42,395 nucleotides of DNA from a virus. The position numbers and the translations under genes are program-made. The notes below the pieces were generated by a model. The model ran no database searches and was not told the DNA's origin. It saw only the letters and a list, made by a program, of their open reading frames with translations. The stretch covers positions 1-42,395 of the IMG/VR virus record IMGVR_UViG_3300038701_002472; one strand, 5' to 3'. Of the stretch, positions 3,024-39,454 are shown piece after piece (the first letter of the stretch is position 1; each line of letters opens with the position of its first letter).

Positions 3024-4813
3024 TGCTTGACCTGGCGAATCCCATGGCGGAGCAGCAGGCGGCGCTCGCGGCGATTGAGGCGCGGGCGACGCGGGCGGTG
3101 GAGTCGCTGGCGAAGCCGGGGCTGATGACGCGGCTGGTGGATCGCGCGATCGGGCTGGTGAGCCCGAGCGCTTTGGCGCATCGGGAGGCGGATCGGTTTG
3201 ATGCGGCGATGTCGATCCATAAGGCCGCGGCGATGAACCGGCTGACGGCGGATTGGTACGCGGAGACGGTGAGCGGGGACCAGGCGACGCTGGACGACAT
3301 GGCGACGATCAACGCGCGGGCGCGTCAGGGTCGGCGGGATAATTGGGCGATCACTTCGATCTGTTCGAGCTATCGGCGTGACATCGGATACATGACGCCG
3401 CGGAGCGCGGCGTTTGATCCGCGGACGGGCGAGAAGCTGGTGGATCTGAATCGGCGGCTGGATTGGCTTTGGCGTCGGTGGTCGAGTCGGGCGGCGTTCT
3501 GTGACTTTCATCGTCAGAACACGCTGGCGGAGGCGTGCGGCTTGATGACGGAGGAGTGGGTGCAGGTGGGCAGCTCATTCATGGTGATGAGTGTGGAGCG
3601 GCGCGGCGGCCCGGTGGATCTGGTGTTTGAGTTGCTGGAAGTCGAGCAGCTGGCGTCCGATCTGTACGAGCATCAGGCCAACGGGAACCGGATCAAGAAC
3701 GGGGTGGAGGTCACGAAGCGCGGTGAGCCGGTGGCGATGTGGTTTTACCGTAACGAGCATCCGCTGGAGGATGCGGTGCGGGATGTGGCGCGGGTGCCGA
3801 TTGATCAGGTGCTGGTGTTCACGCGGAGCGTGCGGGTGCGTGAGGTGTTGCCGGCGAGTCGGCTGGCCCCGGTGCTGGTCGATGCGCGGTCGCTGGATAC
3901 GTATCTGACCTATGAGGATCGCGCGAAACAGATCGAGGCTTGTATCTCGCTGCAGGCGGTGAAGGATCAATCGGCGAAGGGTCCGGCGGGCCGGGGGCTG
4001 GGGATGCAGAGCGGGGTGACGTCGGGGACGGCGGATGCGTCGGTGCGTGATGCGCGGGGTCGCAAGGTGACGACGATGCAGAGCGGGATCATTTACGACA
4101 ACCCGCCGGGCGTGAAGCTGGAGGCGCTGAACACGACGCGGGGCGGCTCGCCCTTTGAGACGTACACGGGGGTACGCGAGCGGCACATTGCGGCGGGCGC
4201 GGACCGGAGCCCGTCGAGTCTGACGCGGCGGTACCTGGCGAGCTACACGGCGGAGCGTCGGGGCGAGGTCGAGGATGCGAAGGTGAATGAGCCGCTGCAG
4301 CAGTTGCAGGTGGACGCGGTTTTGCGGCCGCTGCGCGAGATGTTCGTGCGGCTGGCGATCATGCAGGGGAAGGTGGACGGGCTGGTGCCGCGCGAGATGC
4401 TGCGGGATCCGGATCTGACGGCGGCGCTGTATGAGGCGGAGTGGATGCCGCCTCGGGTTCGGCCGCTGGACCCGGCGAAGGATGCGGCGAGCAAGAAGAT
4501 CCGTCTGGATATGAAGCTGGACAATCACGGCCGGATTTTGAATGAGGAGGGCCGGGACTGGCGGGATAACTTCGATGATATTGAGGAGCAGCGCGAGTAC
4601 GCGGCGGAGCGTGGGATTGACCTGGCGGCGGCTGCGAAGGTGAACCCGAGCGAGCCGCGGCCGCGGGGTGCGAGCAATGCGCCGGACGGGACGGCGGACG
4701 ATGACGGTGGGGGCGATGACGATACCGAAGGCGAAGGCCGGGGTGTGTTGTATGGGGAGACCGCGCCCGCTGAAGCGGGGCGGCCGGGGGAGGAGGTGAT
4801 GGCGGATGCTTGA
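3023..4813 (+). CDS. Portal protein (lambda gpB family)
   Basis: 596 aa from the ATG at 3023; a GTG at 3020 is possible, but ATG overlaps the preceding stop (TGATG). Portal proteins form the dodecameric ring at the head vertex through which DNA passes. Supporting regions: ARQGRRDNWAITSICSSYRRDIGY (about 92-115), conserved WxWRRWSSRA, FELLEVEQLASDLYEH, and the late DRSPSSLTRRYLASYTAERRGE segment characteristic of lambda-type portals. The acidic, glycine-rich C-terminal tail carries one dispersed palindromic element read as TAPAEAGRPG (about residues 580-589). The gene ends 8 nt inside the following gene. Confidence 0.9.
   Translation: MLDLANPMAEQQAALAAIEARATRAVESLAKPGLMTRLVDRAIGLVSPSALAHREADRFDAAMSIHKAAAMNRLTADWYAETVSGDQATLDDMATINARARQGRRDNWAITSICSSYRRDIGYMTPRSAAFDPRTGEKLVDLNRRLDWLWRRWSSRAAFCDFHRQNTLAEACGLMTEEWVQVGSSFMVMSVERRGGPVDLVFELLEVEQLASDLYEHQANGNRIKNGVEVTKRGEPVAMWFYRNEHPLEDAVRDVARVPIDQVLVFTRSVRVREVLPASRLAPVLVDARSLDTYLTYEDRAKQIEACISLQAVKDQSAKGPAGRGLGMQSGVTSGTADASVRDARGRKVTTMQSGIIYDNPPGVKLEALNTTRGGSPFETYTGVRERHIAAGADRSPSSLTRRYLASYTAERRGEVEDAKVNEPLQQLQVDAVLRPLREMFVRLAIMQGKVDGLVPREMLRDPDLTAALYEAEWMPPRVRPLDPAKDAASKKIRLDMKLDNHGRILNEEGRDWRDNFDDIEEQREYAAERGIDLAAAAKVNPSEPRPRGASNAPDGTADDDGGGDDDTEGEGRGVLYGETAPAEAGRPGEEVMADA
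4761..4785 (+). repeat. Dispersed palindromic element, copy 1
   Basis: In frame in the portal C-terminal tail (TAPAEAGRPG); followed at once by a purine-rich ribosome site for the next gene. Consensus stem CCCGCT/AGCGGG with loop GA, flanked by CCGCG on the left and GCGGCC on the right. Confidence 0.92.
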
Positions 4814-7479: not shown

Positions 7480-7887
7480 ATGGCTGGCAAGAATGACCTG
7501 GTGTGCGTGCGTGGGCTTTCGATCGAGGGGCAGGCGTTTGAGCGCGGCGACGTGCTTGGGTTGCGGGATAAGGATGGGGTGCTGAAGTCGAAGGTGAAGG
7601 GGGTGGACCGGGGGCATTTGGAGGCTCGGTTGCGGAACAAGTTGATTCAGGTGGGGCCGCTGGTGGATTCCGCGCCCGCTGAAGCGGAGCGGCCGAAGGA
7701 TCCGCCGGAGGGGACGGCGTTGCCGGAGGGGTTCCCGGCGAAGGCGGAGCTGGAGAAGGCGGGGGTGAAGACGGTTGAGGCGCTTATGGCCATGGAGCCG
7801 GAGGCGGTGCAGAAGGTGAAGGGTGTGGGCGAGGCGACGTACGACGCGATCGAGGCGGCGCTGGCTGACCTGCGCGATGGTGAGTGA
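7480..7887 (+). CDS. Helix-hairpin-helix head/neck-region protein
   Basis: 135 aa from the ATG at 7480, which has GGAG 6-7 nt upstream; the open frame extends 30 nt further upstream but that part overlaps the region just after the hairpin. The N-terminal half is basic, with short beta-type stretches. A degenerate copy of the dispersed element encodes SAPAEAERP in the middle as a linker. The C-terminus has a helix-hairpin-helix-like motif (LEKAGVKTVEALMAM..VQKVKGVGEATYDAIEAAL) as in nonspecific DNA-binding proteins. Similar HhH proteins occur after capsid genes in some phages, but the exact role (head completion, DNA contact) is unknown. Confidence 0.75.
   Translation: MAGKNDLVCVRGLSIEGQAFERGDVLGLRDKDGVLKSKVKGVDRGHLEARLRNKLIQVGPLVDSAPAEAERPKDPPEGTALPEGFPAKAELEKAGVKTVEALMAMEPEAVQKVKGVGEATYDAIEAALADLRDGE
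7670..7694 (+). repeat. Dispersed palindromic element, copy 2 (degenerate)
   Basis: In frame as SAPAEAERP; one G to A change at the base of the 3' arm and a diverged 3' end, so it looks like an older copy. Confidence 0.8.
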
Positions 7888-10908: not shown

Positions 10909-10933
10909 CCGCGCCCGCTGAAGCGGGGCGGCC
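10909..10933 (+). repeat. Dispersed palindromic element, copy 3
   Basis: Intergenic, 18 nt after the tail tube stop. Consensus form with loop GA. Confidence 0.92.
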
Positions 10934-10973: not shown

Positions 10974-11321
10974 ATGGCGAAGCAATTGAGCGGTGATGCG
11001 AAGATTCGGGCGGCGTTTTGTTTGTGCCGCGGGGGTTGGGCGCGTCGGCCGATGTCGGCGGTGTTGCGGGCGTGGGGGAAGCTGCCGGAGACGGCGCGGG
11101 CGGCGTATGTGTCGCGGCTGGAGAAGCTGGACGCGAAGGGGCGGGACAAGTTTTTGGCGGAGCTCGGCGAGCCGGCGGCGGAGCTGGTGGACGAGTCCGC
11201 GGATGATCGTGAGGTGAATGATGGACGTGATGAAGGATCTGAAGACGGCGGCGGAGGTGAGGGCGGAAGCGCCGGAGGTGCCTCGGGCGGAGACGGGGGC
11301 GGGGAGTCCCGCGCCCGCTGA
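10974..11321 (+). CDS. Small protein between tail tube and tail chaperone
   Basis: 115 aa from ATG 10974 (GGAG at 10964-10967). Residues 1-70 look like a helical domain (GDAKIRAAFCLCRGGWARRPMSAVLRAWGKLPETARAAYVSRLEKL). The last about 35 residues are Gly/Asp-rich, lie on top of the next gene in another frame, and end SRAR followed by a TGA that is provided by dispersed element copy 4. The original stop may have been earlier. Unknown function; possibly a chaperone-like or regulatory tail-assembly protein. Confidence 0.55.
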   Translation: MAKQLSGDAKIRAAFCLCRGGWARRPMSAVLRAWGKLPETARAAYVSRLEKLDAKGRDKFLAELGEPAAELVDESADDREVNDGRDEGSEDGGGGEGGSAGGASGGDGGGESRAR

Positions 11322-11901
11322 AGCGGGGCGGCCGGGCCCCGGAAGTGGGGCGAGTCCGTTGGGGAAGATCCCGACGGGGTTGGATGAGGAGCTGGCGTTT
11401 GAGTTCCCGGCGGATGCGGACTTTCCGAAGGCGCATCGGCGGGTGCTGTTGACCCGGCCGGTGAAGCGTCGGCAGGCGAAGCGGCTGCGGGAGCTGTTGA
11501 CCTGGCTGAACGGGGTGAACGGTGGGGCGGCGGGCGCGAGCGAGGATCTGGCGCGGCAGGTGTTCGACGTGGCCGATCAGATCGCGGCGGTGATCGCGTC
11601 GGTGTCGGTGGGCTGGCGGAACGTGGTCGATCGCGACGGCCGGGCGGTGGCGTTCTCGGCCGATGCGTTGGATGATGTGATGGACGATGGGGATGTGATC
11701 GGGCTGGGTGCGCTGCTGGCGTACCAGGGCTCGCTGGGGTCTGCCGAAAAAAAGCGATCAGGCTCGCCGTCTGGATTGAATACGCAAAGCACGGCGGGCT
11801 CGAAACCGTCAACGGGGTCGCTTGTGTCGGGACTGTCGTTCGACCCCAGCGTATCCCTTGCCCCGGGTGTGATGGGCGATGGTCGGGATGGGAGCGGCTG
11901 A
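11218..11901 (+). CDS. Tail assembly chaperone, G-like
   Basis: 227 aa (ATG 11218; ATG 11221 has better spacing from GAGG). Comparable in role and place to lambda gpG: lies between tail tube and tape measure and contains a slippery heptamer near its 3' end. Residues about 25-45 hold dispersed element copy 4 (SPAPAEAGRPG) in a flexible N-terminal part. The folded part (about 50-175) is FEFPADADFPKAHRRVLLTRPVKRRQAKRLRELLTWLNG... The zero-frame tail after the slip site is Ser/Gly-rich and low in complexity, whereas the -1 frame looks like real protein. Confidence 0.75.
   Translation: MMDVMKDLKTAAEVRAEAPEVPRAETGAGSPAPAEAGRPGPGSGASPLGKIPTGLDEELAFEFPADADFPKAHRRVLLTRPVKRRQAKRLRELLTWLNGVNGGAAGASEDLARQVFDVADQIAAVIASVSVGWRNVVDRDGRAVAFSADALDDVMDDGDVIGLGALLAYQGSLGSAEKKRSGSPSGLNTQSTAGSKPSTGSLVSGLSFDPSVSLAPGVMGDGRDGSG
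11309..11333 (+). repeat. Dispersed palindromic element, copy 4
   Basis: Read in frame in the G-like chaperone (PAPAEAGRPG) and in another frame provides the TGA that ends the overlapping upstream ORF (SRAR-stop). Confidence 0.92.
11748..11754 (+). promoter_or_regulatory. -1 programmed frameshift slippery site
   Basis: A AAA AAG, in the correct phase for the G-like frame (codons GAA AAA AAG). It is inside the only A7 run of the tail region. A -1 slip enters a frame open from here to 12260. This heptamer is one of the most efficient bacterial -1 slippery sequences. Confidence 0.85.
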
Positions 11902-15091: not shown

Positions 15092-15648
15092 TGGCGGAGC
15101 GTGTGCCTTTGATGGTGACGGTGGAGGAGCGGGACATCATCCGGGATGTGTTGCTGGCGGTGATGCGCGCGAAGGGCGGGGGGTCGGTGACGGTGAAGTA
15201 TGTGCCGGGGGTTGGGTTGTCGGTGAGTGGGACCGCGCCCGCTCAAGCGGGGCGGCCGGGGCGGGAGCAGTTTGCGCTGGTGGAGTTCACGGCGGCGGAT
15301 GGGACCGATGCCTGGAAGTATGTGGCGCGGGAGGTGGTGGCGGATGATGAGACGGCGGATCCGCCCACGTACACGGTGAAGGATCCGGGGCGGACGTGGG
15401 GGGTTGATTCGGACGATGAGGGGCTGGTGATCGATCTGCTGCGGCGGGAGGGTCTGGAGGACGTGGGGGACGGGATCACGCCGGTGTATTGGGTTCGGCG
15501 GGTGGCGCGAAAGCTGGGGGATGGTGGGACGTTTTGGGTGGTGGTGGGGGGTGGGGGTAGTGGGTTGCCGGACGGGACCGGCCAGTACAAGGTGCTGCAG
15601 CTCGATGCGGATGATGAGCCGCATTGGGATTGGGTGAGGGCTCACTGA
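15091..15648 (+). CDS. Tail-region protein of unknown function
   Basis: 185 aa, ATG overlapping the preceding TGA. A short conserved-looking N-terminus (VPLMVTVEERDIIRDVLLAVMRAKGGGSVTVKYVPGVGLSVSG) is followed by dispersed element copy 5 (TAPAQAGRPG, residues about 48-57), then an acidic region with TYTVKDPGRTWGVDSDDEGLVIDLL and a Gly-rich VVVGGGGSGLPDGTGQYKVLQLDADDEPHWDWVRA end. The last part resembles phage structural proteins that carry a 'GTGQYKVLQLDADDEPHWDWV' type end common in tail fibre adaptors. Function unknown. Confidence 0.62.
   Translation: MAERVPLMVTVEERDIIRDVLLAVMRAKGGGSVTVKYVPGVGLSVSGTAPAQAGRPGREQFALVEFTAADGTDAWKYVAREVVADDETADPPTYTVKDPGRTWGVDSDDEGLVIDLLRREGLEDVGDGITPVYWVRRVARKLGDGGTFWVVVGGGGSGLPDGTGQYKVLQLDADDEPHWDWVRAH
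15233..15257 (+). repeat. Dispersed palindromic element, copy 5
   Basis: In frame as TAPAQAGRPG; loop variant CA instead of GA. Confidence 0.9.
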
Positions 15649-18225: not shown

Positions 18226-18250
18226 CCGCGCCCGCTGAAGCGGTGCGGCC
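18226..18250 (+). repeat. Dispersed palindromic element, copy 6
   Basis: Intergenic; one G to T change at the base of the 3' arm. Confidence 0.85.
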
Positions 18251-24417: not shown

Positions 24418-25123
24418 TGTGGTGGTGAAACGGGATCGGGTGGTGGCGGAGCGTGACGCGGCGGATCTTCGCGCGATGCTCGAGGGGACGTTTGAGCGGT
24501 GGGAGGTGGCCGGTTCGCTGCGGCGCGGGCATGCGGCGGTGGGGGATGTGGATCACGTGCTGATCCCGAAGATGATCGAGGTGCCCGGGCCGGGGCTGTT
24601 CGGTGGGCCGGTGGAGGTGAATGCGTGCTGGCGGGCGTTGGATCGGCTGGTGGAGGAGGGTGGCGGTTCCGCGCCCGCTGAAGCGGGGCGGCCGGGGGAT
24701 GAGGTGGAGGATGAGTTTGAAGGGGCGTGTGGGGACTGGTCGGTGGTGAAGGCGGTGCGAGAGACGAAGAACGGGCCTCGGACTTGCTGGGGTGAGAAGC
24801 ATCGGGCGGTGTGGTTCCGCGGGTGCGTGCATGAGTTGTATGTGGCAGAGCCTTCGACGTGGGGGAGTGTGATGCTGATTCGGACGGGCCCGGCGGAGTT
24901 CTCGCGGTGGATGGTGACGGAGCTGCGGCGGTACGGGTTCAAGCATGAGGGTGGGCGTGTGATTGATACGCGGAAGGTGAGCGAGGATGCGGTGGTGGCG
25001 GTGCCGGAGGAGGGGGTGTTGTTTGACCTGGTGGGGATTAAGTATCGGGAGCCGGCGGATCGTCGGTGTAAGTGGCCGGATAACCGGGATGCGATGGATG
25101 GGGATGTGGACCGCGCCCGCTGA
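24410..25123 (+). CDS. DNA polymerase beta-type nucleotidyltransferase
   Basis: 237 aa from ATG 24410 (coupled). FERWEVAGSLRRGHAAVGDVDHVLIPK (about 27-53) is the Pol-beta/PolX motif GSxRRG...GDxDhhV, in which the Asp residues bind metal. The later LFDLVGIKYREPADRRCKWPDNRDAM region fits the same superfamily. Element copy 16 (SAPAEAGRPG) lies in an acidic linker at about residues 87-96. The protein ends VDRAR-stop inside element copy 17, so its original C-terminus may be altered. The role could be repair or end-processing in replication. Confidence 0.78.
   Translation: MSDVVVKRDRVVAERDAADLRAMLEGTFERWEVAGSLRRGHAAVGDVDHVLIPKMIEVPGPGLFGGPVEVNACWRALDRLVEEGGGSAPAEAGRPGDEVEDEFEGACGDWSVVKAVRETKNGPRTCWGEKHRAVWFRGCVHELYVAEPSTWGSVMLIRTGPAEFSRWMVTELRRYGFKHEGGRVIDTRKVSEDAVVAVPEEGVLFDLVGIKYREPADRRCKWPDNRDAMDGDVDRAR
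24669..24693 (+). repeat. Dispersed palindromic element, copy 16
   Basis: In frame in the nucleotidyltransferase linker (SAPAEAGRPG). Confidence 0.93.
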
Positions 25124-25135
25124 AGCGGGGCGGCC
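25111..25135 (+). repeat. Dispersed palindromic element, copy 17
   Basis: Supplies the TGA stop of the nucleotidyltransferase (DRAR-stop). Confidence 0.92.
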
Positions 25136-25279: not shown

Positions 25280-27145
25280 ATGAGCATGACGATGAGCGAA
25301 TTGGACCGGACGGCGTTGGATGATCAGGGCGTGCCGATGGTGCGGACGGGGCCGAGCGTGGGGAGCGCGGAGGAGCGGGCGATCGAGGTGGGTTTGATCC
25401 TGGCGGATCGGAACCATCGTCGGCCTCGGCCGGGGGACGCGGCGCGGCTGGCGTCGCTGGGGGAGTCGCTGCGTGAGCGGGGGATGCTGCAGGCGGTGGG
25501 CGTGGCGGTGCTGGTGGAGGGGATGAAGGGTTATGTGAAGGGGCAGGAGCGGTACCGGCTGCTGTTTGGGGCGCGGCGTCTGGAGGCGGCGCGGTCGCTG
25601 AAGTGGACGCATGTTCCGGCGCGGCTGTTTGCGGTCAGTAGTGATGCGGAGGTGGAGTCGCTGCGGGCGGTGGAGAATCTGCACCGCCAGGACATCAGCG
25701 CGATCGAGGAGGCGCAGGCGGTGAGTGATGTGATCGGGTTCTACCTGGAGCAGCACGGGGCGGTGAGTCGGGCGGATGCGATTCGGTTCTGTGCCGAGCA
25801 TACGGGTCAGACGGAGGATTGGGTGCGGAACCGGGATTACTTTGAGCGGTTGACGCCGAAGGTGCGTGCGGCGGCGTTGGAGGCGGAGGTGCCGGCGACG
25901 CATCTGCGGGAGCTGGCGACGGTGGGGAGTGAGACGGATCAGTGGCGGTTGCTGTTGGATGTGGTGGGTGTGTTTGCTCACCAGGCGGGCAAGTTGGAAT
26001 CGCTCGATCCGGCGGCGTGCAAGGATAAGTGGGTGCGTGATCAGCTCGAGGGGCTGCGTGAGGCGATCGACGCGGGGGCGGTGCGGTACATGCCGATTCG
26101 GGATCTGCGTAAGAGGGTGGCGGAGAGTCGGCGGAAGCTGCGGAGTGTGAAGTGGGATCTGTCGCTGGTGGTGCTGTCGGGTAAGGATGAGCTGCCGGCG
26201 TGTGATGGGTGTCCGAAGAACAGCGCGACCGAGCCGGGGCTGTTTGGTTTGGATGAGTCGCCGGCGGTGAAGGATGCGACGTGCGGGGATGCGGCGTGTT
26301 TTAAGGCGAAGGGCCAGGCGGCGGAGAAGGCGCGGGCGGCGCTTTTGAAGTCGTTTGCGAAGAAGAAGGCGGTGCCGAGCGCGGCGGATGTGAAGGTGAA
26401 GCTGGCGCTGGGTTCGGTGGCGCGGGCGGGTTTGGACGAGAAGAAGGCGGTGGGTTTTGTTCAGCGGGAGGTGAAGAAGCGGGTGGCTCCGGATTCGGTG
26501 AAGCATGCGAGCGGGTCGGGGGGCGGCGGGTACGGTGAGCGGAAGCTGACGAAGCATGAGGTGGCGCTGAATAAGTTTTGTGCCGCGTACAACGATTGGC
26601 TAGGCCAGGCGGCGGGTGCGATCTGGGGGGAGGCGTTGAAGAATCCCGCGGATATGGCGGCGCTGCTGATCTTTCAGCGGCTGGTGATCTTTGATGATTG
26701 GCGGATGCGTCAGGCGCTGCTGATGGAGACGCCGACGGGTCGGCAGTACGGGGATGAGCAGAAGGGGGTGCCGAAGGCGGCGGAGGCCGTGCCGAAGGAG
26801 CTGGAAAAGGCGTTGGCGTGCTTTGAGGTGAAGGATGCTTGGGCGCGGCTGGTGGAAATGGAGCTTGACCTGGAGGAGTGCGTGCAGCTGCAGGAGGTGC
26901 TGCACGTTGAGGTCGCCGAGCGGCTGGCGAAGGCGTTTGGGGCGGAGCTGCCGGTGATGCCTCGGTGGGAGGATTTTGATCCGGCGGCGAAGGTGACGGG
27001 GGCGGGGGAGGGTTCCGCGCCCGCTGAAGCGGGGCGGCCGGGGAAGAAGAAGGTGAGTAAGAAGAAGGTGGCGGTTAAGAAGGTGAGCAAGAAGAAGGGG
27101 CCGGCGCGGAAGCGGGTGAAGAAGGGTGAGGGGGTGACGTCGTGA
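25280..27145 (+). CDS. ParB/RepB/Spo0J-family protein
   Basis: 621 aa from ATG 25280 (GGAAGG upstream). N-terminal ParB fold: LASLGESLRERGMLQAVGVAVLVEG..YVKGQERYRLLFGARRLEAARSLKW, ARLFAVSSDAEVESLRAVENLHRQDISAIEEAQAV, then a HTH region. Middle CDGCPKNSATEPGLFGLD...CGDAACFKAK is a Cys cluster seen in phage/plasmid ParB-like proteins. Element copy 18 (SAPAEAGRPG) precedes a Lys-rich tail (KKKVSKKKVAVKKVSKKK). Roles may include DNA binding, partition of a plasmid prophage, or nuclease-like CTPase activity; no ParA is seen. Confidence 0.85.
   Translation: MSMTMSELDRTALDDQGVPMVRTGPSVGSAEERAIEVGLILADRNHRRPRPGDAARLASLGESLRERGMLQAVGVAVLVEGMKGYVKGQERYRLLFGARRLEAARSLKWTHVPARLFAVSSDAEVESLRAVENLHRQDISAIEEAQAVSDVIGFYLEQHGAVSRADAIRFCAEHTGQTEDWVRNRDYFERLTPKVRAAALEAEVPATHLRELATVGSETDQWRLLLDVVGVFAHQAGKLESLDPAACKDKWVRDQLEGLREAIDAGAVRYMPIRDLRKRVAESRRKLRSVKWDLSLVVLSGKDELPACDGCPKNSATEPGLFGLDESPAVKDATCGDAACFKAKGQAAEKARAALLKSFAKKKAVPSAADVKVKLALGSVARAGLDEKKAVGFVQREVKKRVAPDSVKHASGSGGGGYGERKLTKHEVALNKFCAAYNDWLGQAAGAIWGEALKNPADMAALLIFQRLVIFDDWRMRQALLMETPTGRQYGDEQKGVPKAAEAVPKELEKALACFEVKDAWARLVEMELDLEECVQLQEVLHVEVAERLAKAFGAELPVMPRWEDFDPAAKVTGAGEGSAPAEAGRPGKKKVSKKKVAVKKVSKKKGPARKRVKKGEGVTS
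27015..27039 (+). repeat. Dispersed palindromic element, copy 18
   Basis: In frame at the start of the ParB-like Lys-rich tail (SAPAEAGRPG). Confidence 0.93.
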
Positions 27146-27589: not shown

Positions 27590-29077
27590 ATGGCAGGGAA
27601 GCCGAAGGATAAGGGCGCGGTGGAACGGGTCGAGCTGGATCCCGAGCTGGTGGCGGGGCCTCGGGGTCTGCGTTGTCCGGTGTGTTCGGAGTCGCTGGTG
27701 CGGGAGGAGGTGGCGGGGGGTCCGCCTCGGGGCCGGCGGGTGCGGGTGAGCGGGGTGTATTGCGGGCACGTGGATCAGAAGGTGGATGTGCCGGAGGTTG
27801 GGCCGGCGGTGACGGTGGATGAGCTGGGGGCGGGTGATCCTTCGCGGCGGATCATGACGTCGGGGCCGGACGGTGAGCGGCGGGGGAAGCGGCCGCGGTG
27901 CAAGCGGAAGGGGTGTCTGTCGCTGGCGGCGGAGGCGGGGTATTGCGATCCGTGTTTGTCGCGGCGTCGGGTGTGGGCGTCGGCGCGGTTGGATCCGGAT
28001 GCGATGGAGGCGAAGTTGGATGCGGGGCGGGGGGTGAAGGGGAAGGCGGTGAAGAAGGGTCCGGGGGTGTCGGGGTCTGCGCCCGTGTGTGGTTCCGCGC
28101 CCGCTGAAGCGGGGCGGCCGGCCCCCGGAAGTTCGCGGCCGGTGGCGGTTTCTCGGGGGTGTCGGGTGGTGGGGTGTGGGGGTGAGCGGTCGAGTTCGCT
28201 GGGGCTTTGTGCGAAGCATTATCAGCGGTGGCGGGCGGTGGAGTCGGTGGCGGCAATGGATGATTGGCTGGCGGCGGATGGTCCGACCGCGACGGTTTGG
28301 GATCGGCTTATAAAAGCGAAAGCGGAAGGTGGCGGTGATGAGCAGGGATGCGACGGGCGGCGAGTTGAATCCGTTTCGGCCGGTGCCGAAGCCAACGGGC
28401 GGGAAGCGGGGGGATCGTCGGCGGGTGACGTATCCGGCGGCGAAGGTGAAGCCGAAGGTGCGGGGGGAGGTGGCGTTGGGTCCGGTGCCGGCGGAGCTGC
28501 ACCAGGTGCCGGCGGATGTTCGGGCGCGGGATCAGGTGTTGCTGTCGGGTCTGCTGGATCTGGTGTGCATGGATCCGGCGGACATGACGCCGGGGCAGTT
28601 GCGGCGGGCGCGGGGTCATGCGGGGCTGACGCTGGCGCAGGCGGCGAAGCTGCTGGGGGTGAGTCCGGCGGTGGTGATGAGTCTGGAGGCGGGGCGGGCG
28701 GAGCTGCCGGAGGCGGAGTGGGCGGAGCTGATGGCGAAGATGGGGGAGGTATACGGGTGCGAGAAGGCCGAGCGGCCGGTGATGCCCTGGGAGCGTTGAG
28801 GGGGTGGGGGAAGGAGATTCTGGCGATGTGTGAGGAGGGGGGAGCGTCGGGGGGGTCCGCGTTGGGGGGTTCCGCGCCCGCTGAAGCGGGGCGGCCGGGG
28901 TGTTGGGATCGGCCTCGGGTTGAGGTGCTGTCGGCGTTTACGGTGCCGGCGGGCGAGGTGGTTTTGGTGGTGGGCCGGACGGATCGGCAGTTGGTCGTGG
29001 GGACGGCGCAGGGGCTCCTGTTGTATGTGGTGGAGTTGGATGAGTTGGGGGTGGTGGGAAAGGGTGGGAGCTTATGA
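27590..29077 (+). CDS. Zinc-ribbon protein; reading frame lacks a stop before the next genes
   Basis: ATG 27590. Residues about 1-245 look genuine: LRCPVCSESLV, RPRCKRKGCLSLAAEAGYCDPC, CRVVGCGGERSSSLGLCAKHYQRWR are three Cys clusters, and element copy 19 (SAPAEAGRPA) is in frame. After about 28335 the frame becomes Gly/Ala-rich because it runs antiphase over the XRE gene (28338-28799), and then becomes sensible again as the next small gene (28826-29077). A TGA in another frame (28336-28338) precedes the XRE start, so a one-base frameshift near the 3' end of the zinc gene is likely. The 495-aa product is doubtful. Confidence 0.45.
   Translation: MAGKPKDKGAVERVELDPELVAGPRGLRCPVCSESLVREEVAGGPPRGRRVRVSGVYCGHVDQKVDVPEVGPAVTVDELGAGDPSRRIMTSGPDGERRGKRPRCKRKGCLSLAAEAGYCDPCLSRRRVWASARLDPDAMEAKLDAGRGVKGKAVKKGPGVSGSAPVCGSAPAEAGRPAPGSSRPVAVSRGCRVVGCGGERSSSLGLCAKHYQRWRAVESVAAMDDWLAADGPTATVWDRLIKAKAEGGGDEQGCDGRRVESVSAGAEANGREAGGSSAGDVSGGEGEAEGAGGGGVGSGAGGAAPGAGGCSGAGSGVAVGSAGSGVHGSGGHDAGAVAAGAGSCGADAGAGGEAAGGESGGGDESGGGAGGAAGGGVGGADGEDGGGIRVREGRAAGDALGALRGWGKEILAMCEEGGASGGSALGGSAPAEAGRPGCWDRPRVEVLSAFTVPAGEVVLVVGRTDRQLVVGTAQGLLLYVVELDELGVVGKGGSL
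28095..28119 (+). repeat. Dispersed palindromic element, copy 19
   Basis: In frame as SAPAEAGRPA, preceded by a partial GCGCCCG 18 nt upstream. Confidence 0.93.
28338..28799 (+). CDS. XRE-family HTH transcriptional regulator
   Basis: 153 aa from ATG 28338 (GGAAGG upstream; GTG 28329 possible). A basic N-terminal arm (NPFRPVPKPTGGKRGDRRRVTYPAAKVKPKV) is followed by the HTH MTPGQLRRARGHAGLTLAQAAKLLGVSPAVVMSLEAGRAELPEAEWAELMAKMGEVYG (about 90-145), the standard XRE/Cro-CI fold with a recognition helix in SPAVVMSLEAG. The helix domain is C-terminal, unlike CI. Candidate regulator of early transcription or lysogeny. Confidence 0.78.
   Translation: MSRDATGGELNPFRPVPKPTGGKRGDRRRVTYPAAKVKPKVRGEVALGPVPAELHQVPADVRARDQVLLSGLLDLVCMDPADMTPGQLRRARGHAGLTLAQAAKLLGVSPAVVMSLEAGRAELPEAEWAELMAKMGEVYGCEKAERPVMPWER
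28826..29077 (+). CDS. Small hypothetical protein with N-terminal element
   Basis: 83 aa from ATG 28826, AAGGAG 9 nt upstream. Element copy 20 gives SAPAEAGRPG at residues 16-25; the rest (VEVLSAFTVPAGEVVLVVGRTDRQLVVGTAQGLLLYVVELDELG) is a beta-rich unit. Same frame as the long zinc-protein ORF, but the ribosome site and the sequence character support an independent gene. Its stop overlaps the next ATG. Confidence 0.6.
   Translation: MCEEGGASGGSALGGSAPAEAGRPGCWDRPRVEVLSAFTVPAGEVVLVVGRTDRQLVVGTAQGLLLYVVELDELGVVGKGGSL
28872..28896 (+). repeat. Dispersed palindromic element, copy 20
   Basis: In frame as SAPAEAGRPG near an N-terminus. Confidence 0.92.
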
Positions 29078-29431: not shown

Positions 29432-29456
29432 CCGCGCCCGCTAAAGCGGGGAGGCC
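29432..29456 (+). repeat. Dispersed palindromic element, copy 21
   Basis: Intergenic, directly before the next start; loop AA and one G to A in the 3' flank. Confidence 0.9.
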
Positions 29457-29461: not shown

Positions 29462-29920
29462 ATGGGAGGTCGTGTGGTGCAGGTGGTGGTGAAGCTTTGG
29501 ACGATGGAGACGGCGCAGGCGTCGCTGGTTTACGTTGGCCCGATCGCGGATGAGCTGCGGAAGGTGGCGCGGCGGGTGGAGTGTTTGGATCGTGACGTGG
29601 TGCGGGTGGAGGTGGGGTTGGATCGTCGGCGATCGACGGGGGCGCTGATGATGGATCGGCGGCGGCTGGTTCGGCGGCTGATGGACCTGGTGCGGGAGCT
29701 GCACGGGGCGGGGGTGCGGGTGGTGAGTCTGCGGAGCGGGCGGCTGGCGTGGTCGACCGGGGATCGGCTGGGGTCGGCGGGGTTGACGTGGTGTCCTGGG
29801 GAGTCGCACGTGCAGCCTTACGCGGTGGCGGGTGGGGTGGTTTGTGGGGCGGGTTCCGCGCCCGCTGAAGCGGGGCGGCCGGGGCGTGGGAGTGGCGGGG
29901 ATGAGAGGCGGCGGCGGTGA
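29462..29920 (+). CDS. Hypothetical protein with C-terminal element
   Basis: 152 aa from ATG 29462, right after element copy 21, whose GGTG end may serve as a ribosome site. Alternating strands and basic helices (VVQVVVKLWTMETAQASLVYVGPIADELRKVARRVECL) and GLTWCPGESHVQPYAVAGG. Ends with element copy 22 (SAPAEAGRPGRG). Overlaps the RuvC-like gene start. Function unknown. Confidence 0.58.
   Translation: MGGRVVQVVVKLWTMETAQASLVYVGPIADELRKVARRVECLDRDVVRVEVGLDRRRSTGALMMDRRRLVRRLMDLVRELHGAGVRVVSLRSGRLAWSTGDRLGSAGLTWCPGESHVQPYAVAGGVVCGAGSAPAEAGRPGRGSGGDERRRR
29856..29880 (+). repeat. Dispersed palindromic element, copy 22
   Basis: In frame as SAPAEAGRPGRG near a C-terminus. Confidence 0.93.
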
Positions 29921-30513
29921 GGGTTTTGGCGATTGATCCGAGTTCGACGTGTACGGGGTTTGCGGTGTTGACGGGGCTGGGGCCGGCGGACCTGGTGGAG
30001 GTGGGCTTGATCCGGCCGAGCTTATCGAAGGCGGCGCAGGCGGCGGCGGAGCCGGGGGAGGTGGTTCGGGCTTGGAATAGTCGGAAGGAGCTGACGGCGT
30101 TGCGTCGGGTGCTGTCGGTGGTGCGTGACGTGGAGGAGGTGGTGGCGGAGGTCGCGGCCGGGGGCGAGCTGTCGGTGGTGGTGGAGATCCCGAGCGGGCT
30201 GACGGGGACGGGTGCGAAGAAGGGGGCGCGGGGGAGCTTGACGACGTACGGGCTGGCGGCGGGGATGGTTTACCAGGCGGCGCGGGCGGCGCTGCCGGGG
30301 CAGGTGTTTGGGGTGACCGAGCGGCAATGGACGGCGGGTGCGGGGAGCAAGGAGAAGCGGGCGCGGTCGGTGGTGGGGTTGTACGCGGGGCGGTACCGGG
30401 TGGCGGATGATGAGGGGTTGGACGGTGCGGATGCGATCGGGCTGGGGCGGTGGTGGGTGCGGGGGGTGATGGAGGGGCGGGTTATCGCGCCCGCTGGGTT
30501 CCGCGCCCGCTAA
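29917..30513 (+). CDS. RuvC-like Holliday junction nuclease
   Basis: 198 aa, GTG start. RNase H fold motifs of the RuvC family: VLAIDPSSTCTGFAVL (first Asp), VVVEIPSGL (Glu), LTTYGLAAGMVYQAARAAL and DGADAIGLGRWW (paired Asp). It would resolve recombination or replication junctions before packaging. Its end APAGFRAR-stop lies inside element copy 23, which gives the stop codon; a preceding partial copy suggests insertion there. Confidence 0.83.
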   Translation: MRVLAIDPSSTCTGFAVLTGLGPADLVEVGLIRPSLSKAAQAAAEPGEVVRAWNSRKELTALRRVLSVVRDVEEVVAEVAAGGELSVVVEIPSGLTGTGAKKGARGSLTTYGLAAGMVYQAARAALPGQVFGVTERQWTAGAGSKEKRARSVVGLYAGRYRVADDEGLDGADAIGLGRWWVRGVMEGRVIAPAGFRAR

Positions 30514-30525
30514 AGCGGGGCGGCC
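30501..30525 (+). repeat. Dispersed palindromic element, copy 23
   Basis: Supplies the TAA stop of the RuvC-like gene; loop AA; partial copy 16 nt upstream. Confidence 0.92.
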
Positions 30526-30716: not shown

Positions 30717-31391
30717 GTGGTTTGCCTGGCGGGGTTCCGGCAGGATGCGGGGCCGGCGTCGGGGATGGCGAAGTTGCATCGGTTCCTGGAGGTGAAGTTT
30801 CATGACCGGCGCCGGGAGTTTGTGGCTTTGCGGACGTGGAACAGTGACGCCGAAGCCACGGCGGCGCAGATCGCGGCGCGTAAGCCTCGGAAGGTGATCG
30901 TGGTGGGGTATTCGTACGGGTGCGGGTGGGGCTTGCCGCAGCTGGCGCAGGCGCTGGGGGCGTGGGGCGTGGGGGTTGATCTGGCGTTGCTTGTGGATCC
31001 GGTGCCGCGGTGGACGTGGCTGCCTTTGAAGTGGCTGGCGTTGACGCGGTGGGGGGTGTACCGGGTGCCGGTGAACGTGGGGCGGGTGCATTACTGGCGG
31101 CAGGTGAATGGTGCGCCGTTTGGCCGGCGGGTCGTGGCGGGGCGTGGGTCTGGGATGGTTTTTGGGCGGGGGAGTTCCGCGCCCGGTAAACCGGGGCGGC
31201 CGGGGGTTCGGTCGGGGGTGCGGTGTGAGGGGGTTTATGGGGCGATGGGGAATCTGTTTGCGTATGCGAACGTGGACGCGGAGGAGGGCCGGTGGGTGGC
31301 GACGGCGGGGGATGATCACCTGTCAATTGATGATAAGCCGGCGATCCATCGGCGGATTTTGGATCTGATTGAAGCGGAGGTGTCGCGATGA
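30717..31391 (+). CDS. Alpha/beta hydrolase-like protein
   Basis: 224 aa from GTG 30717 just after the terminator (the frame opens further upstream but would cross it). CLAGFRQDAGPASGMAKLHRFLE, then KVIVVGYSYGCGWGLPQLAQAL with the G-x-S-x-G nucleophile elbow, LLVDPVPRWTW as a possible acid site, and GDDHLSIDD with a His for the triad. Element copy 24 (SAPGKPGRPG) is inserted as a loop. Could be an envelope/lipid esterase used in lysis or a host metabolism gene; substrate unknown. Confidence 0.7.
   Translation: MVCLAGFRQDAGPASGMAKLHRFLEVKFHDRRREFVALRTWNSDAEATAAQIAARKPRKVIVVGYSYGCGWGLPQLAQALGAWGVGVDLALLVDPVPRWTWLPLKWLALTRWGVYRVPVNVGRVHYWRQVNGAPFGRRVVAGRGSGMVFGRGSSAPGKPGRPGVRSGVRCEGVYGAMGNLFAYANVDAEEGRWVATAGDDHLSIDDKPAIHRRILDLIEAEVSR
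31177..31201 (+). repeat. Dispersed palindromic element, copy 24
   Basis: In frame as SAPGKPGRPG in the hydrolase; stem form CCCGGT/ACCGGG, loop AA. Confidence 0.92.
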
Positions 31392-31783
31392 TGGGTTTTA
31401 TGCTGTTGATGGCGGCGGTGGTGGTGAGGTGCTTGGTTTGGGCGGTGAGTCCGCGCCCGCTGAAGCGGGGCGGCCAGGTGTTGCTGGCGCTGGTGATGGT
31501 GGGGCTGGTGGGGTGCGGGCGGTCGGTGGGGTATTCGGCGGAGGGGTTCACGTACCGGAACCTGGGGCAGGATACGGCGTTTGGTGCGCTGGACGTGGAG
31601 CGGCGGACGGTGACCGAGACGTTGGACCCGGCGACGGGGGCGGTGACGGAGCGGGTGACGGAGGAGACGGTGGTGCGGGTGGATGGGTACGAGGGCGAGG
31701 AGGTTGCGGCGCGGGCGCGGGCGGCGACGGTGGGGACGCTGTTGGAGGCGGCGGCGCGGGAGCTGGAGTTGGGTAGCGAGTGA
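31388..31783 (+). CDS. Lipoprotein-like protein with element-derived signal region
   Basis: 131 aa, ATGA overlap. MMGFMLLMAAVVVRCLVWAV is one hydrophobic stretch, followed by element copy 25 in its other open frame (PRPLKRGGQ), then VLLALVMVGLVGC, a lipobox (LVGC). A start after or within the element would give a classic lipoprotein signal with a basic n-region. The mature part is acidic with coiled-coil-like segments (TEETVVRVDGYEGEEVAARARAATVGTLLEAAARELEL). Possibly an outer spanin-like or envelope protein. Confidence 0.6.
   Translation: MMGFMLLMAAVVVRCLVWAVSPRPLKRGGQVLLALVMVGLVGCGRSVGYSAEGFTYRNLGQDTAFGALDVERRTVTETLDPATGAVTERVTEETVVRVDGYEGEEVAARARAATVGTLLEAAARELELGSE
31451..31475 (+). repeat. 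Dispersed palindromic element, copy 25
   Basis: The only copy read as PRPLKRGGQ; lies before a lipobox. Confidence 0.92.
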
Positions 31784-31787: not shown

Positions 31788-31812
31788 CCGCGCCCGCTGA
31801 AGCGGGGCGGCC
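31788..31812 (+). repeat. Dispersed palindromic element, copy 26
   Basis: Intergenic, 4 nt after the lipoprotein stop. Confidence 0.92.
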
Positions 31813-32206: not shown

Positions 32207-33145
32207 ATGATGAGGCGTTTGCTTTTTATTGATTGGGCGTGGTGGTGTGTGCTGGCGATTGTGCTGGCGCTGGGCTTGTGTATGGGCGTTGCGTATGGGT
32301 CTGACGGTGATGGTGCGGCGGGGGAGGAGTCTGCGGAGACCGCGCCCGCTGAAGCGGGGCGGCCAGTGAGTGAGGGGGAGATTGATGCGGTGCGGGCGGG
32401 GATTACGGAGCTGGTGGCGCGGGCGGAGGCGATCAAGCTGGCGCTGCTGGCGGCGGGGTATGCGAGCGATTCGCCGGAGGTGGTGGCGGCGCGGTCGATG
32501 CAGCTGGCGGGTGAGCTGGCGCGGACCAATGGGCGGATGCTGGATGGGTTGTTGGATGCGGGTGAGGGTGAGGCGGGTGAGGGTGAGGGTGATGAGGGTT
32601 CCGCGCCCGGTGAACCGGGGCGGCCGGGTGGGGAGGGTGATGGGGATGGTGGGGGTGATGAGGTGGGGTGGGTGCCGCCGGATTGGTCGGATTGGGTGCC
32701 GGCGGTGTGGTCGGAGGATCCTGGCGATTGGAGCTTTGTGATGGATATGCCTGGCGTGGTGGCTCCGCACGTGGAGATTGTGGCGGGGAGTGATGAGCGG
32801 GTGGCGGCTTGGCATCGGGATCCCGCGCCCGTGGAATCCGCGCCCGGTGAACCGGGGCGGCCGGGGGAGCGGGTGTTGTATGTGGTGGCGGTGATTGGGG
32901 AGGATCAGGTGCTGGTGCGGCAGTTGTGGGATGCGACGAATCGTCGGGTGGTGGCGATGCCGGCGGTGCGGTTTGAGCATACGAAGGTGGGGGTGGTGCA
33001 GACGCGGGTGTACGTGGGCCCGGGGGGGTTGGAGCCTGGGCTGTATGAGCTGCAGGCGTGGGTGTTGGATGAGGCGGGTGCGCGGGTGACGGAGAAGGTG
33101 GCGCGGGGGTTTGAGGTGGTGGATGTCGTGGGAGCAAGTGATTGA
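32207..33145 (+). CDS. Secreted multidomain protein with three elements
   Basis: 312 aa from ATG 32207 (GTG 32204 possible). A signal-anchor segment (LLFIDWAWWCVLAIVLALGLCMGVAYG) precedes an acidic region. Element copies 27, 28 and 29 (TAPAEAGRPV, SAPGEPGRPG, SAPGEPGRPG) divide a helical domain (EIDAVRAGITELVARAEAIKLALLAAGYA), a Trp-rich part (VGWVPPDWSDWVPAVWSEDPGDW) and a beta-rich C-terminal domain (RVLYVVAVIGEDQVLVRQLW...GLYELQAWVLDEAGARVTEKV). Probably exported; partner unknown. Confidence 0.6.
   Translation: MMRRLLFIDWAWWCVLAIVLALGLCMGVAYGSDGDGAAGEESAETAPAEAGRPVSEGEIDAVRAGITELVARAEAIKLALLAAGYASDSPEVVAARSMQLAGELARTNGRMLDGLLDAGEGEAGEGEGDEGSAPGEPGRPGGEGDGDGGGDEVGWVPPDWSDWVPAVWSEDPGDWSFVMDMPGVVAPHVEIVAGSDERVAAWHRDPAPVESAPGEPGRPGERVLYVVAVIGEDQVLVRQLWDATNRRVVAMPAVRFEHTKVGVVQTRVYVGPGGLEPGLYELQAWVLDEAGARVTEKVARGFEVVDVVGASD
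32340..32364 (+). repeat. Dispersed palindromic element, copy 27
   Basis: In frame as TAPAEAGRPV. Confidence 0.93.
32601..32625 (+). repeat. Dispersed palindromic element, copy 28
   Basis: In frame as SAPGEPGRPG; stem CCCGGT/ACCGGG. Confidence 0.93.
32838..32862 (+). repeat. Dispersed palindromic element, copy 29
   Basis: In frame as SAPGEPGRPG; partial copy 15 nt upstream. Confidence 0.92.
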
Positions 33146-35740: not shown

Positions 35741-35765
35741 CCGCGCCCGCTTAAGCGGGGCGGCC
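35741..35765 (+). repeat. Dispersed palindromic element, copy 30
   Basis: Intergenic; loop TA; the AGGTG right after it may be a ribosome site. Confidence 0.92.
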
Positions 35766-36419: not shown

Positions 36420-36444
36420 CCGCGCCCGCTGAAGCGGGGCGGCC
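36420..36444 (+). repeat. Dispersed palindromic element, copy 31
   Basis: Intergenic, 8 nt after a stop codon. Confidence 0.92.
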
Positions 36445-36547: not shown

Positions 36548-37264
36548 ATGGCGAAGAAGAAAGTGGCGAAGAAGAAGGGGGTGCGGAAGAAGGCTCCGCG
36601 GAAGAAGGCGGCGGGGTCGGGGTCGGGTAAGACCGCGCCCGCTGAAGCGGGGCGGCCGTTGGAGCTTAAGTTTGTGAGGGCGGGGGAGCTGAAGGATCAT
36701 CCGGAGAATTGGCGGGTGCATCCGGCGAGCCAGGTGAAGGCGTTTGAGGCGGTGCGGCGTGAGGTGGGGTTTGTGGGCTATGTGGTGGTGAACCGGCGGA
36801 CGGGGCACGTGCTGGATGGGCACATGCGGAAGAACGCGGTGCCGGCGGAGACGCTGGTGCCGGTGGTGTTTGGGGATTGGAGTGAGGCGGAGGAGCGGCT
36901 GGTGCTGGCGACGTTCAATCCGCTGGGGGACATGGCGGGGCTTGACGCGGGGAAGGCGGAGGGGTTATTGGCGCGGGTCGCGTCGTCGGAGCCGGCGGTG
37001 CAGGCGCTTCTGGAGGTTCTGGAGCGCGATATCGAGAAGGCCATGCGGGCGGTAGATCGGGCGGCTGCCAAGGATGAGGAGCAGGATGAGGATGAGCAGC
37101 CGGAGGCCGGCGACGGCGGCGGCGCTGATGAGGGGGCGGGTAAGGCGGTGAAACAGATCCATGCGGTGATGATACGGTGTGCGGATGAGCTGGATCAGAT
37201 GACGCTGATTCAGGAGCTGAAGGGGCGGGGGTTTAAGCAGGTTAAGCGGGCGGGGTTGGAGTGA
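36548..37264 (+). CDS. ParB/Srx-domain protein 1
   Basis: 238 aa, ATG with GGAGGAGATC upstream. A Lys-rich N-terminal tail (AKKKVAKKKGVRKKAPRKKAA) is joined by element copy 32 (TAPAEAGRPL) to a ParB-like domain: LKDHPENWRVHPASQVKAFEAVRREVGFVGYVVVNRRTGHVLDGHMRKNAV, VPVVFGDWSEAEERLVLATFNPLGDMAG. Such domains occur in phage modification and methyltransferase operons. The acidic middle region and a C-terminal small domain (IHAVMIRCADELDQMTLIQELKGRGF) follow. Confidence 0.8.
   Translation: MAKKKVAKKKGVRKKAPRKKAAGSGSGKTAPAEAGRPLELKFVRAGELKDHPENWRVHPASQVKAFEAVRREVGFVGYVVVNRRTGHVLDGHMRKNAVPAETLVPVVFGDWSEAEERLVLATFNPLGDMAGLDAGKAEGLLARVASSEPAVQALLEVLERDIEKAMRAVDRAAAKDEEQDEDEQPEAGDGGGADEGAGKAVKQIHAVMIRCADELDQMTLIQELKGRGFKQVKRAGLE
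36633..36657 (+). repeat. Dispersed palindromic element, copy 32
   Basis: In frame between the Lys tail and the ParB domain (TAPAEAGRPL). Confidence 0.93.
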
Positions 37265-37276: not shown

Positions 37277-37301
37277 CCGCGCCCGCTGAAGCGGGGCGGC
37301 C
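37277..37301 (+). repeat. Dispersed palindromic element, copy 33
   Basis: Intergenic, 12 nt after a stop codon. Confidence 0.92.
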
Positions 37302-37333: not shown

Positions 37334-37975
37334 ATGGCGCGGAAGAGTTTGAAGGGTGATGGGGGGGCGGCGCCCGGGGGGGCCGCGGCTGGGGGGTCCG
37401 CGCCCGCTGAAGCGGGGCGGCCGGGGGTGGAGCCGGTGTTGGAGTGGTGGCCGGCGGAGAAGCTGGTGGGTAATCCTTTGAATTGGCGGAGCCATTCGGC
37501 GAAGCAGCGGGCGGCGCTGGATGGTGTGATGGACAAGGTGGGTTGGGCGGGTGCGGTAATCGTGAACCGGCGGACGGGTCACGTGATCGATGGGCATCTG
37601 CGGATGGAGCGGGCGGTGGAGCTCGAGGAGGAGCGGGTGCCGGTGCTGGTGTTTGATCTGCCGGAGGATAAGGAGCATCTGGCGCTGGCGACGCATGATG
37701 CGCTGGCGCGGTGGGCGGATGGTGATCAGCCGCAGTATGACGAGCTCCGGTCAGAGGTGGCGGGGGCGTTTGACGACCTGGGCGATGATGTGTCGTCGGT
37801 GATGCGTGAGGTGGCGGCGGAGCTGGCGGGTGAGGAGGCGAAGCGGGAGCGGGCGGCGAAGCATGAGGTGGAGGGGTATTGGGTCAAGGTGGAGTGTGGG
37901 TCGGTGAAGGAGCAGAAGCGGTTGTATGAGCTGATGCAGGAGGAGGGCCGGCCGTGTCGGGTGCTGACGTTGTAG
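37334..37975 (+). CDS. ParB/Srx-domain protein 2
   Basis: 213 aa, ATG with GGGAG upstream. Paralogue of the preceding gene: element copy 34 (SAPAEAGRPG) again joins an N-terminal low-complexity tail to EPVLEWWPAEKLVGNPLNWRSHSAKQRAALDGVMDKVGWAGAVIVNRRTGHVIDGHLRMERAV...VPVLVFDLPEDKEHLALATHDALARWA. The C-terminal domain (VEGYWVKVECGSVKEQKRLYELMQEEGRPCRVLTL) is similar in place to that of paralogue 1. Overlaps the next gene by 22 nt. Confidence 0.8.
   Translation: MARKSLKGDGGAAPGGAAAGGSAPAEAGRPGVEPVLEWWPAEKLVGNPLNWRSHSAKQRAALDGVMDKVGWAGAVIVNRRTGHVIDGHLRMERAVELEEERVPVLVFDLPEDKEHLALATHDALARWADGDQPQYDELRSEVAGAFDDLGDDVSSVMREVAAELAGEEAKRERAAKHEVEGYWVKVECGSVKEQKRLYELMQEEGRPCRVLTL
37398..37422 (+). repeat. 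Dispersed palindromic element, copy 34
   Basis: In frame between N-terminal tail and ParB domain (SAPAEAGRPG). Confidence 0.93.
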
Positions 37976-38239: not shown

Positions 38240-38264
38240 CCGCGCCCGCTGAAGCGGGGCGGCC
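38240..38264 (+). repeat. Dispersed palindromic element, copy 35
   Basis: Intergenic, 14 nt before the ABC-GNAT start codon; the ribosome site GCGGAG directly follows it. Confidence 0.92.
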
Positions 38265-38278: not shown

Positions 38279-39454
38279 ATGCCGAAGGTTGATGTGGTGA
38301 ATGAGGTGCCGATCGCGAGGAGCTTTCGGGTGGACCAGGCGGCGGGGATGTTTGATGTGTCGCTGGAGGATAAGTCGCGGGTGCGGATCCGCGGGGAGGT
38401 GCCGGGGGTTGATGAGGATTGGACGCTGGGGGCGATCATCGGGCCGAGCGGGAGCGGGAAGGGGACGGTGGCCCGGACGGTGTACGGGGCGGACTTCTTG
38501 GAGCAGTTGCCCGAGCGGTCGAGTCCGTTTGATTGGGATCGTGACGCGGCGATCGTGGATGGGTTTGGGGATGATGCGGATCTGCGGCAGGTGACGGCGC
38601 TGCTGGGGTCGGTGGGGTTGGCGAGCCCGCCGGCGTGGGTGCGGCCTTATCGGGTGTTGAGTACGGGGCAGCGGTTCCGGGCGGATCTGGCGCGGGCGCT
38701 GATGCTGGACCGGGAGCTGGTGGTGTTCGATGAGTTTGGCGGGACGGTGAGCGAGGATGTGGCGAACGTCTGTGCGGCGACGGTGGCGAAGTCGGTACGG
38801 AAGGGGCGGGGGAAGGTGAAGCGGTTTGTGGCGGTTGGGGCGCGTGATAATTTCGTGGATTGGCTGGATCCTGAATGGGTGCTGGATATGCGCACGGAAC
38901 CGGGTCGATTGACCTGGCGTGCAAGGGGGTCGGTTCGGCGGGGTAGAGGTGAGCGAGGGGGTTCTGCGCCCGGTAAACCGGGGCGGCCGGGTGGGGGGCG
39001 GCCGGGGATTGAGTTTGGGGTGTGGCGGGGGAGTCGGTCGGCTTGGCCGCTGTTTAGGGGTCACCACTATTTAAGCTCGCGGCTGAATAAGTCGGCGCGG
39101 GTGTATCTGGCGCGGGTTCGGCTGCCTGGGCGAGAGGATTGGGAGACGGTGGGGTTTTGTGCGACGCTGAATAATGCGGGGTTTAAGGGGTATCGGATGG
39201 TGCATCGGCTGGTGGTGTTGCCGGACTGGCAGGGGCTAGGGCTGGGGCCGCGGCTGCTGGATCGGGTGGCGGAGGTGGAGGCGGTGACGGGGCCGGTGAG
39301 TATTCGGACGAGTCACCCGGGGTTGATCGGGTACCTTGATCGGTCGGAGCGGTGGAGGTTCCATAGTCAATACGACGGGACCGCGCCGCAGCGGGGGTTT
39401 AAGAACGCGGGGAGCTTTGGGCGGGTGACGGCGGGGTTTATGTGGCGCGGGTGA
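38279..39454 (+). CDS. ABC-type ATPase fused to GNAT acetyltransferase
   Basis: 391 aa from ATG 38279 (GCGGAG 6 nt upstream). The N-terminal ATPase has Walker A GPSGSGKGT, signature LSTGQRFRADLARAL and Walker B LVVFDEF; the usual H-loop His is replaced (VGARDNF). Element copy 36 (SAPGKPGRPG) is exactly at the linker. The C-terminal domain has FRGHHYLSSRLN, VHRLVVLPDWQGLGLGPRLLDRV (GNAT motif A, Q-x-x-G-x-G) and a late GLIGYLDRSERWRF. This fusion is the COG2401-like 'ATPase fused to acetyltransferase' architecture. Possibly DNA or protein modification; no methyltransferase accompanies it. Confidence 0.85.
   Translation: MPKVDVVNEVPIARSFRVDQAAGMFDVSLEDKSRVRIRGEVPGVDEDWTLGAIIGPSGSGKGTVARTVYGADFLEQLPERSSPFDWDRDAAIVDGFGDDADLRQVTALLGSVGLASPPAWVRPYRVLSTGQRFRADLARALMLDRELVVFDEFGGTVSEDVANVCAATVAKSVRKGRGKVKRFVAVGARDNFVDWLDPEWVLDMRTEPGRLTWRARGSVRRGRGERGGSAPGKPGRPGGGRPGIEFGVWRGSRSAWPLFRGHHYLSSRLNKSARVYLARVRLPGREDWETVGFCATLNNAGFKGYRMVHRLVVLPDWQGLGLGPRLLDRVAEVEAVTGPVSIRTSHPGLIGYLDRSERWRFHSQYDGTAPQRGFKNAGSFGRVTAGFMWRG
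38964..38988 (+). repeat. Dispersed palindromic element, copy 36
   Basis: In frame between ATPase and GNAT domains (SAPGKPGRPG); stem CCCGGT/ACCGGG, loop AA, one C to T at the second base. Confidence 0.9.

Follow-up and report, generated by a model that had tools for sequence, protein, structure and literature searches.

The window analysed here, an entire 42,395-bp linear virus record, carries 36 copies of a short hairpin element that all lie in one orientation, and there is good support for their spread by copying: the family is specific to this phage, orthologous genes either do without it or hold another family, compensated subfamilies occur, and the copies within genes occupy unconserved linkers. 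This agrees with active spread, one of the two possibilities raised by the first-pass annotation; the other, a function, may apply as well. As to mechanism, we see about an even chance that this is a nonautonomous REP-like hairpin, spread by copying through a host enzyme of the Y1/HUH type with insertion into one exposed single strand. Bacterial chromosomes commonly contain REP-like hairpins, and how these move and why they are kept is a standing question. A 42-kb phage with 36 one-way copies, together with a syntenic relative that carries different families at overlapping positions, offers a small and tractable system in which orientation, frame, and presence or absence can be read directly, and in which strand-specific single-stranded insertion is testable against RNA function.

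The hairpin family and its placement in the phage

The phage encodes TerL (589-2730), a gpW-like gene (2790-3023), portal, protease/capsid, and tail genes, a tyrosine integrase (18529-19518), an O-like replication protein, HTH proteins, and a tRNA-Arg, and its genes and elements share the + strand. It is a temperate phage, with integrase and HTH proteins. A stretch at about 17575-17622, adjoining the integrase, resembles a tRNA-Ala(GGC) 3' end and, judged from its sequence, is likely the attP core. Three ParB-like proteins (25259-27145, 36548-37264, and 37334-37975), two of them adjacent paralogues, all have elements in their tails.

A fuzzy search of the whole window at up to 4 mismatches recovered 36 copies of the CCGCGCCCGCTGAAGCGGGGCGGCC family between 4761 and 38988, all on the + strand, which bears out the number and single orientation given by the first-pass annotation. 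Minus-strand copies were not found in the window, where the sole match at up to 6 mismatches was an unrelated 6-mismatch sequence, and a reversed control pattern gave 0 matches. Element density is ~0.85 per kb; 24 of the 36 copies are identical, three share the stem variant CCCGGTGAACCGGG, and nine are singletons. TerL, the gpW-like gene, 15258-18225, and the last 3.4 kb are free of copies, as had been reported. The 25-bp palindrome described earlier is present, but it is longer than noted, since beyond the 5-bp core there is a further pairing of CCGC with GCGG around a bulged G. The fold is CCGC-(bulged G)-CCCGC-YNAA-GCGGG-GCGG, a 9-bp stem in which the bulge is invariant. One stem pair is C-G in 30 copies and G-C on both arms in six (mixed copies, 0); this covariation, counted over distinct rows, was reached by just 2 of 500 shuffles, and pairing was destroyed when the arms were slid. 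Conservation of the flanks is partial (GGTT at the 5' foot in 13/36, A or T at position -1 in 33/36, GGG as the 3 bases on the 3' side in 23/36), so the element probably extends a few bases on each side, with decayed ends. A reading as an intrinsic terminator was rejected because the 3' flank is GGG-rich and a T run is absent. Rfam gave no match for the element.

Independent gene calls reproduced the earlier tally of 11 copies between genes, 23 within ORFs, and 2 that provide stop codons, with reservations for four copies. Intergenic copies and those directly bordering genes lie at 10909..10933 (17 nt after a stop), 18226..18250 (upstream of the integrase), 19527..19551 (8 nt after the integrase stop), 19785..19809 (after the tRNA-Arg, with the compensated stem CGGT/ACCG), 20245..20269 (25 nt before ATG 20295), 29432..29456 (4 nt after stop 29427), 31788..31812 (4 nt after stop 31783 and 18 nt before ATG 31831), 35741..35765 (loop TTAA), 36420..36444 (8 nt after stop 36411, at a junction where the relative G001, described below, has hairpins of both its families), 37277..37301 (12 nt after stop 37264), and 38240..38264 (14 nt before ATG 38279). 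The copy at 25111..25135 provides the TGA stop of 24350-25123, and that at 30501..30525 the TAA stop of 29926-30513.

Within genes, copies are read in frame in the portal C-tail (4761..4785, with the next ATG 20 nt on), in the linker of ORF 7480-7887 (7670..7694), in 15091-15648 (15233..15257, loop TCAA), and in the C-tails of 20699-21010 (20964..20988), 21007-21483 (21431..21455), 21751-22278 (22232..22256), and 29474-29920 (29856..29880). The O-like replication protein has three, one in frame in its linker (23073..23097), one of the compensated-stem subfamily with loop CGAA (23283..23307), and one in frame in its C-tail (23820..23844). Further in-frame copies occur in 24350-25123 (24669..24693), 30717-31391 (31177..31201, compensated stem), and 32249-33145 (32340..32364, and, with compensated stems, 32601..32625 and 32838..32862), in the linker between ABC-like and GNAT-like regions (38964..38988, compensated stem), in the C-terminal region of the first ParB-like protein (27015..27039), and in the N-terminal tails of another (36633..36657) and its paralogue (37398..37422). 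The reservations concern 11309..11333, which is in frame in 11218-11901 and whose TGA also ends the overlapping ORF 10962-11321; 31451..31475, which is otherwise the sole frame-0 copy and probably lies just upstream of the probable lipoprotein start GTG 31478; and 28095..28119 and 28872..28896, which are either in frame of the doubtful ORF 27590-29077 or intergenic. That ORF overlaps, in a different frame, an HTH gene with better support (28329-28799).

Orthologue alignments place the intragenic copies in unconserved tails or linkers, and about 14-16 of them lie deep within genes. The secure in-ORF copies (~22) use one of two open frames, reading (S/T)APAEAGRP, and in the minus orientation all three frames of the element are open. 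Hairpin-encoded linkers have in this way been added again and again to phage proteins, among them the portal, replication, and ParB-like proteins. A stop codon lies inside the copy or within 45 nt of it in 17/36 cases (null 5.6), and 15/36 copies are followed by a start at a distance of at most 45 nt (null 2.2). Anchoring to start codons was considered and set aside, as the start enrichment is inseparable from stop-codon anchoring; in wide intergenic gaps, copies are near the stop in five cases and near the start in four.

Hairpins of related phages and Planctomycetota chromosomes

A TerL search found three relatives, namely G001 (IMGVR_UViG_3300037605_000066, 41.6 kb; TerL 56%), which is syntenic throughout with ~50% protein identity, L257 (7.8 kb; TerL 57%), and L007 (13 kb; TerL 43%). 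The comparison of orthologues that the first-pass annotation had recommended showed that G001 has no copy of the window family but carries two others: type A (GTGCTAAGCCGCRAGCGGC; 16 copies, all +, one with the compensated stem GCGGC/GCCGC) and type B (10 copies, all +, mostly ACCCGCCCGCTGAAGCGGGCTCCGCC with a few divergent). Inside ORFs these are read as AKP[QR]AA and PPAEAGSA, respectively. The hairpin families of the two phages are private to each on a common gene backbone, and at those intragenic sites of the window that could be aligned, the orthologues have no copy or a copy of another family nearby. L257, which covers two window sites, has none of the window, type A, or type B hairpins, and its portal/capsid junction is without such an element, unlike the same junction in the window. 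The GC skew of the coding strand in the window ranges from 0.24 to 0.43 and never changes sign, with T exceeding A in nearly all intervals; this uniform G + T excess (GC skew ~0.35) is common to the window and G001, less marked in L257, and lacking in L007.

The positions of these different families coincide beyond expectation. Of the 17 G001 elements that could be mapped, 11 have a window element no more than 120 nt away (null 4.5, p = 0.0006), and with the null limited to unconserved sites, 8/16 lie within 60 nt against 2.8 expected (p about 0.002-0.009). This coincidence could mean common tolerance hot spots or common function, which the data do not separate. That the nearest known relative has other hairpins at many of these sites suggests that tiny REP-like sequences spread strand-specifically through phages.

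As an exact degenerate pattern, the window family is absent from 84,980 GTDB species and 2.9 million viral contigs (IMG/VR), and short-query BLAST against INPHARED phages and PLSDB plasmids gave chance-level matches only (best E 0.09). One contig (L001) recovered with a looser pattern was rejected as a further carrier, its single copy being a chance match. Across 392 sampled Planctomycetota genomes, the window core gave just 3 single one-mismatch matches, and neither type B nor the attP-like tRNA-Ala end was found, so these searches identified no host. From G001 only, we infer Planctomycetota as the host phylum; TerL relatives within it are distant.

Type A is itself a dispersed repeat of Planctomycetota chromosomes, found in at least 120 stretches, often as head-to-head pairs as in BIMEs, and one genome has ~123 copies (at up to 2 mismatches); a REP-like source is therefore present in the phylum. 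These chromosomal copies have no preference for gene orientation (36 vs 46 copies close to starts and 20 vs 21 within genes). At host loci with strong skew they favour the G-rich strand 28:11 (p = 0.009), and a second test in one genome gave 26:14, which is not significant; the preference is at most weak. Sampled skew gave no clear replichores in the two genomes considered (G006 and G007), the skew being too weak. Y1 transposases are encoded in 9/9 Planctomycetota checked, and no type A copy lies within ~1.5 kb of the Y1 genes.

Mechanism of spread and alternative explanations

Known REPs are high-copy bulged hairpins of 20-40 bp that lie near gene 3' ends, some of them within genes or supplying stop codons (PMC3733652, PMC6006769). 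The window element resembles those mobilized by TnpA-REP/RAYT in being a short, dispersed, strand-asymmetric bulged palindrome with a gene-end bias, in-gene copies, and stop codons, and it differs in its single orientation, its location in a phage, the lack of a transposase in the same genome, and the lack of a GTAG/GTGG tag, for which GGTT is a partial counterpart; among the listed window flanks, neither these tetranucleotides nor CGTC occurs at the hairpin foot, which is GGTT in 13/36 and otherwise varied. In REPINs and BIMEs, two REPs in inverted orientation form the replicative, mobile unit (PMC3116915), whereas inverted doublets are absent from the window family (0/36). The family works like a REP but is not a canonical REP or REPIN, having no GTAG tag, inverted pairs, or phage transposase. 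The comparison with Rickettsia palindromic elements drawn by the first-pass annotation holds as an analogy, since RPEs and the in-ORF REPs of Opitutus terrae are likewise palindromes placed in frame in the linkers and tails of many unrelated proteins. It does not hold as membership, because RPEs are defined by the RPE sequence with a CGTC tag (PMC3733652), and the window element is shorter, of other sequence, without CGTC at its foot, and phage-borne. The Planctomycetota type A repeat is also a short hairpin with a GC-rich stem, dispersed between and within genes and present in the relative phage G001, but its sequence is unlike the window family and its chromosomal copies are mixed in orientation and form inverted pairs.

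Identical 25-mers at dozens of unlinked sites, together with common subfamily variants, require copying, and a single orientation in three families (36, 16, and 10 copies) calls for strand specificity either at insertion or in a filter. Coding constraint fails to explain the missing minus copies because that orientation is open in all frames. Insertion into a single strand is preferred over an RNA filter because chromosomal type A is not sense-biased and many copies lie deep in genes. Under this preferred explanation, the hairpin would have spread by copying within the temperate phage and be retained where it is harmless, at gene ends, in intergenic gaps, and in flexible linkers, with linker copies surviving when read as the bland peptide (S/T)APAEAGRP. 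The copying enzyme would recognize the folded single strand; the invariant bulged G and YNAA loop are typical of a recognized single-stranded hairpin rather than of a dsDNA dyad, and the bulge and the loop of known REPs are important to TnpA-REP, as is recognition of the specific strand (PMC8266576). Such an enzyme would most likely be host-encoded and act in trans, being of the Y1/HUH type (TnpA-REP/IS200-IS605). The RAYT-like transposase that the first-pass annotation had proposed to look for was not found, as neither the window phage nor its relatives contain Y1_Tnp or RAYT genes, and a phage-encoded mover was rejected on that ground. Insertion would occur only into the strand exposed as single-stranded DNA during unidirectional phage replication, which would place all copies on the G/T-rich + strand; Y1/HUH enzymes are known to act on the lagging-strand template (PMC6006769), and a uniformly G/T-rich + strand is as expected of a strand often exposed in this form. 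One-strand insertion by a transposase in trans is thus our preferred, though unproven, mechanism. Counting against it are the lack of a Y1 gene in the phage and its relatives, the lack of a tag or inverted pairs, the weak strand bias in host chromosomes, the coincidence with G001 beyond expectation even at unconserved sites, and the restriction of the family to the phage.

Of the alternatives, a functional RNA hairpin comes closest, although we consider it rather unlikely. Here the element would be copied by some means, and only copies in the transcribed sense would be kept for a putative role in mRNA, such as 3'-end stabilization, processing, or the binding of a phage antiterminator or translational regulator; the hairpin would differ from one phage lineage to the next through co-evolution of the partner protein. 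The one-strandedness of genes and elements, the enrichment at stops and upstream of starts (17/36 and 15/36), the compensated stem, and the positions held in common with the G001 families all fit this reading, but the 14-16 or so copies deep in coding regions, the lack of sense preference of type A in Planctomycetota, the empty portal/capsid junction of L257, and the absence of an Rfam match speak against it. A regulatory role as putative protein-bound DNA sites is kept in play because single-orientation repeats are known in the non-structural arm of mycobacteriophages: the stoperators of cluster A and the start-associated sequences of cluster K are many-copy repeats of one orientation, found in the right, non-structural arm and at the borders of genes (PMC6550527, PMC3203893). 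Stoperators are sites to which the phage repressor binds, halting elongation. The window phage shares with these systems its temperate nature, with an integrase and HTH proteins, and many short repeats that cluster in the non-structural right arm and around gene boundaries, all 36 of them on the + strand with the genes and hence in one orientation relative to transcription genome-wide. We nevertheless regard this role as improbable, since the mycobacteriophage sites are 13-bp asymmetric sequences at gene starts or ends, whereas the window copies are hairpins, many in frame within genes; a dsDNA site needs no bulged hairpin with coupled variation; and the copies, unlike start-associated sequences, do not in general sit directly upstream of start codons, just 15/36 being within 45 nt and those in wide gaps lying at the stop (5) as often as at the start (4).

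Single-strand priming or replication signals (primosome/sso-like; PriA/primase) on the displaced or lagging-template strand would agree with the restriction to one strand, the uniform skew suggesting unidirectional replication, and the conserved hairpin, but L257 has none over 7.8 kb and in-frame coding sites are odd for essential signals, so this explanation is very improbable. We know of no precedent for such signals at this copy number. The first-pass annotation had named misassembly or a sequencing artefact as what would refute its claim. The contig is metagenomic, but an element of 25 bp is shorter than a read, the flanks all differ, frames are mostly kept, and analogous elements of other sequence occur in the syntenic relative; an artefact is therefore excluded for practical purposes.

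Returning to strand-specific copying, we tentatively propose, with less confidence than in the mechanism itself, a phage-adapted class of REP-like hairpins that spreads in this manner, with its own family in each lineage at common positions, and that perhaps serves as RNA signals too. If true, this could amount to a novel class of hairpin, mobile or regulatory, whose copies double as phage RNA signals. Literature searches returned no match to the hairpin sequences and no REP-like families in phages, and we know of no earlier case of a REP-like family that is private to a phage and lies in a single orientation.

Further repeats in related contigs and chromosomes

In one Planctomycetota genome (G006, loci L285-L324), long ORFs contain type A-like repeats in one orientation or the other, which suggests that in-gene REP-like insertions are widespread in the phylum; we found no description of them in the literature. 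The viral contig L092 (IMGVR_UViG_3300033154_000176) has type A hairpins and a partly tandem repeat, GCGCGAAACCGCAAGCGG. A third repeat, type C (CC[CG]CGGAAG, mostly GCCCCCGGAAGT), occurs in the window at 11337, 19575, 28123, and 30529 and at nine sites in G001; it lies almost only on the + strand and several times directly abuts an element of another family.
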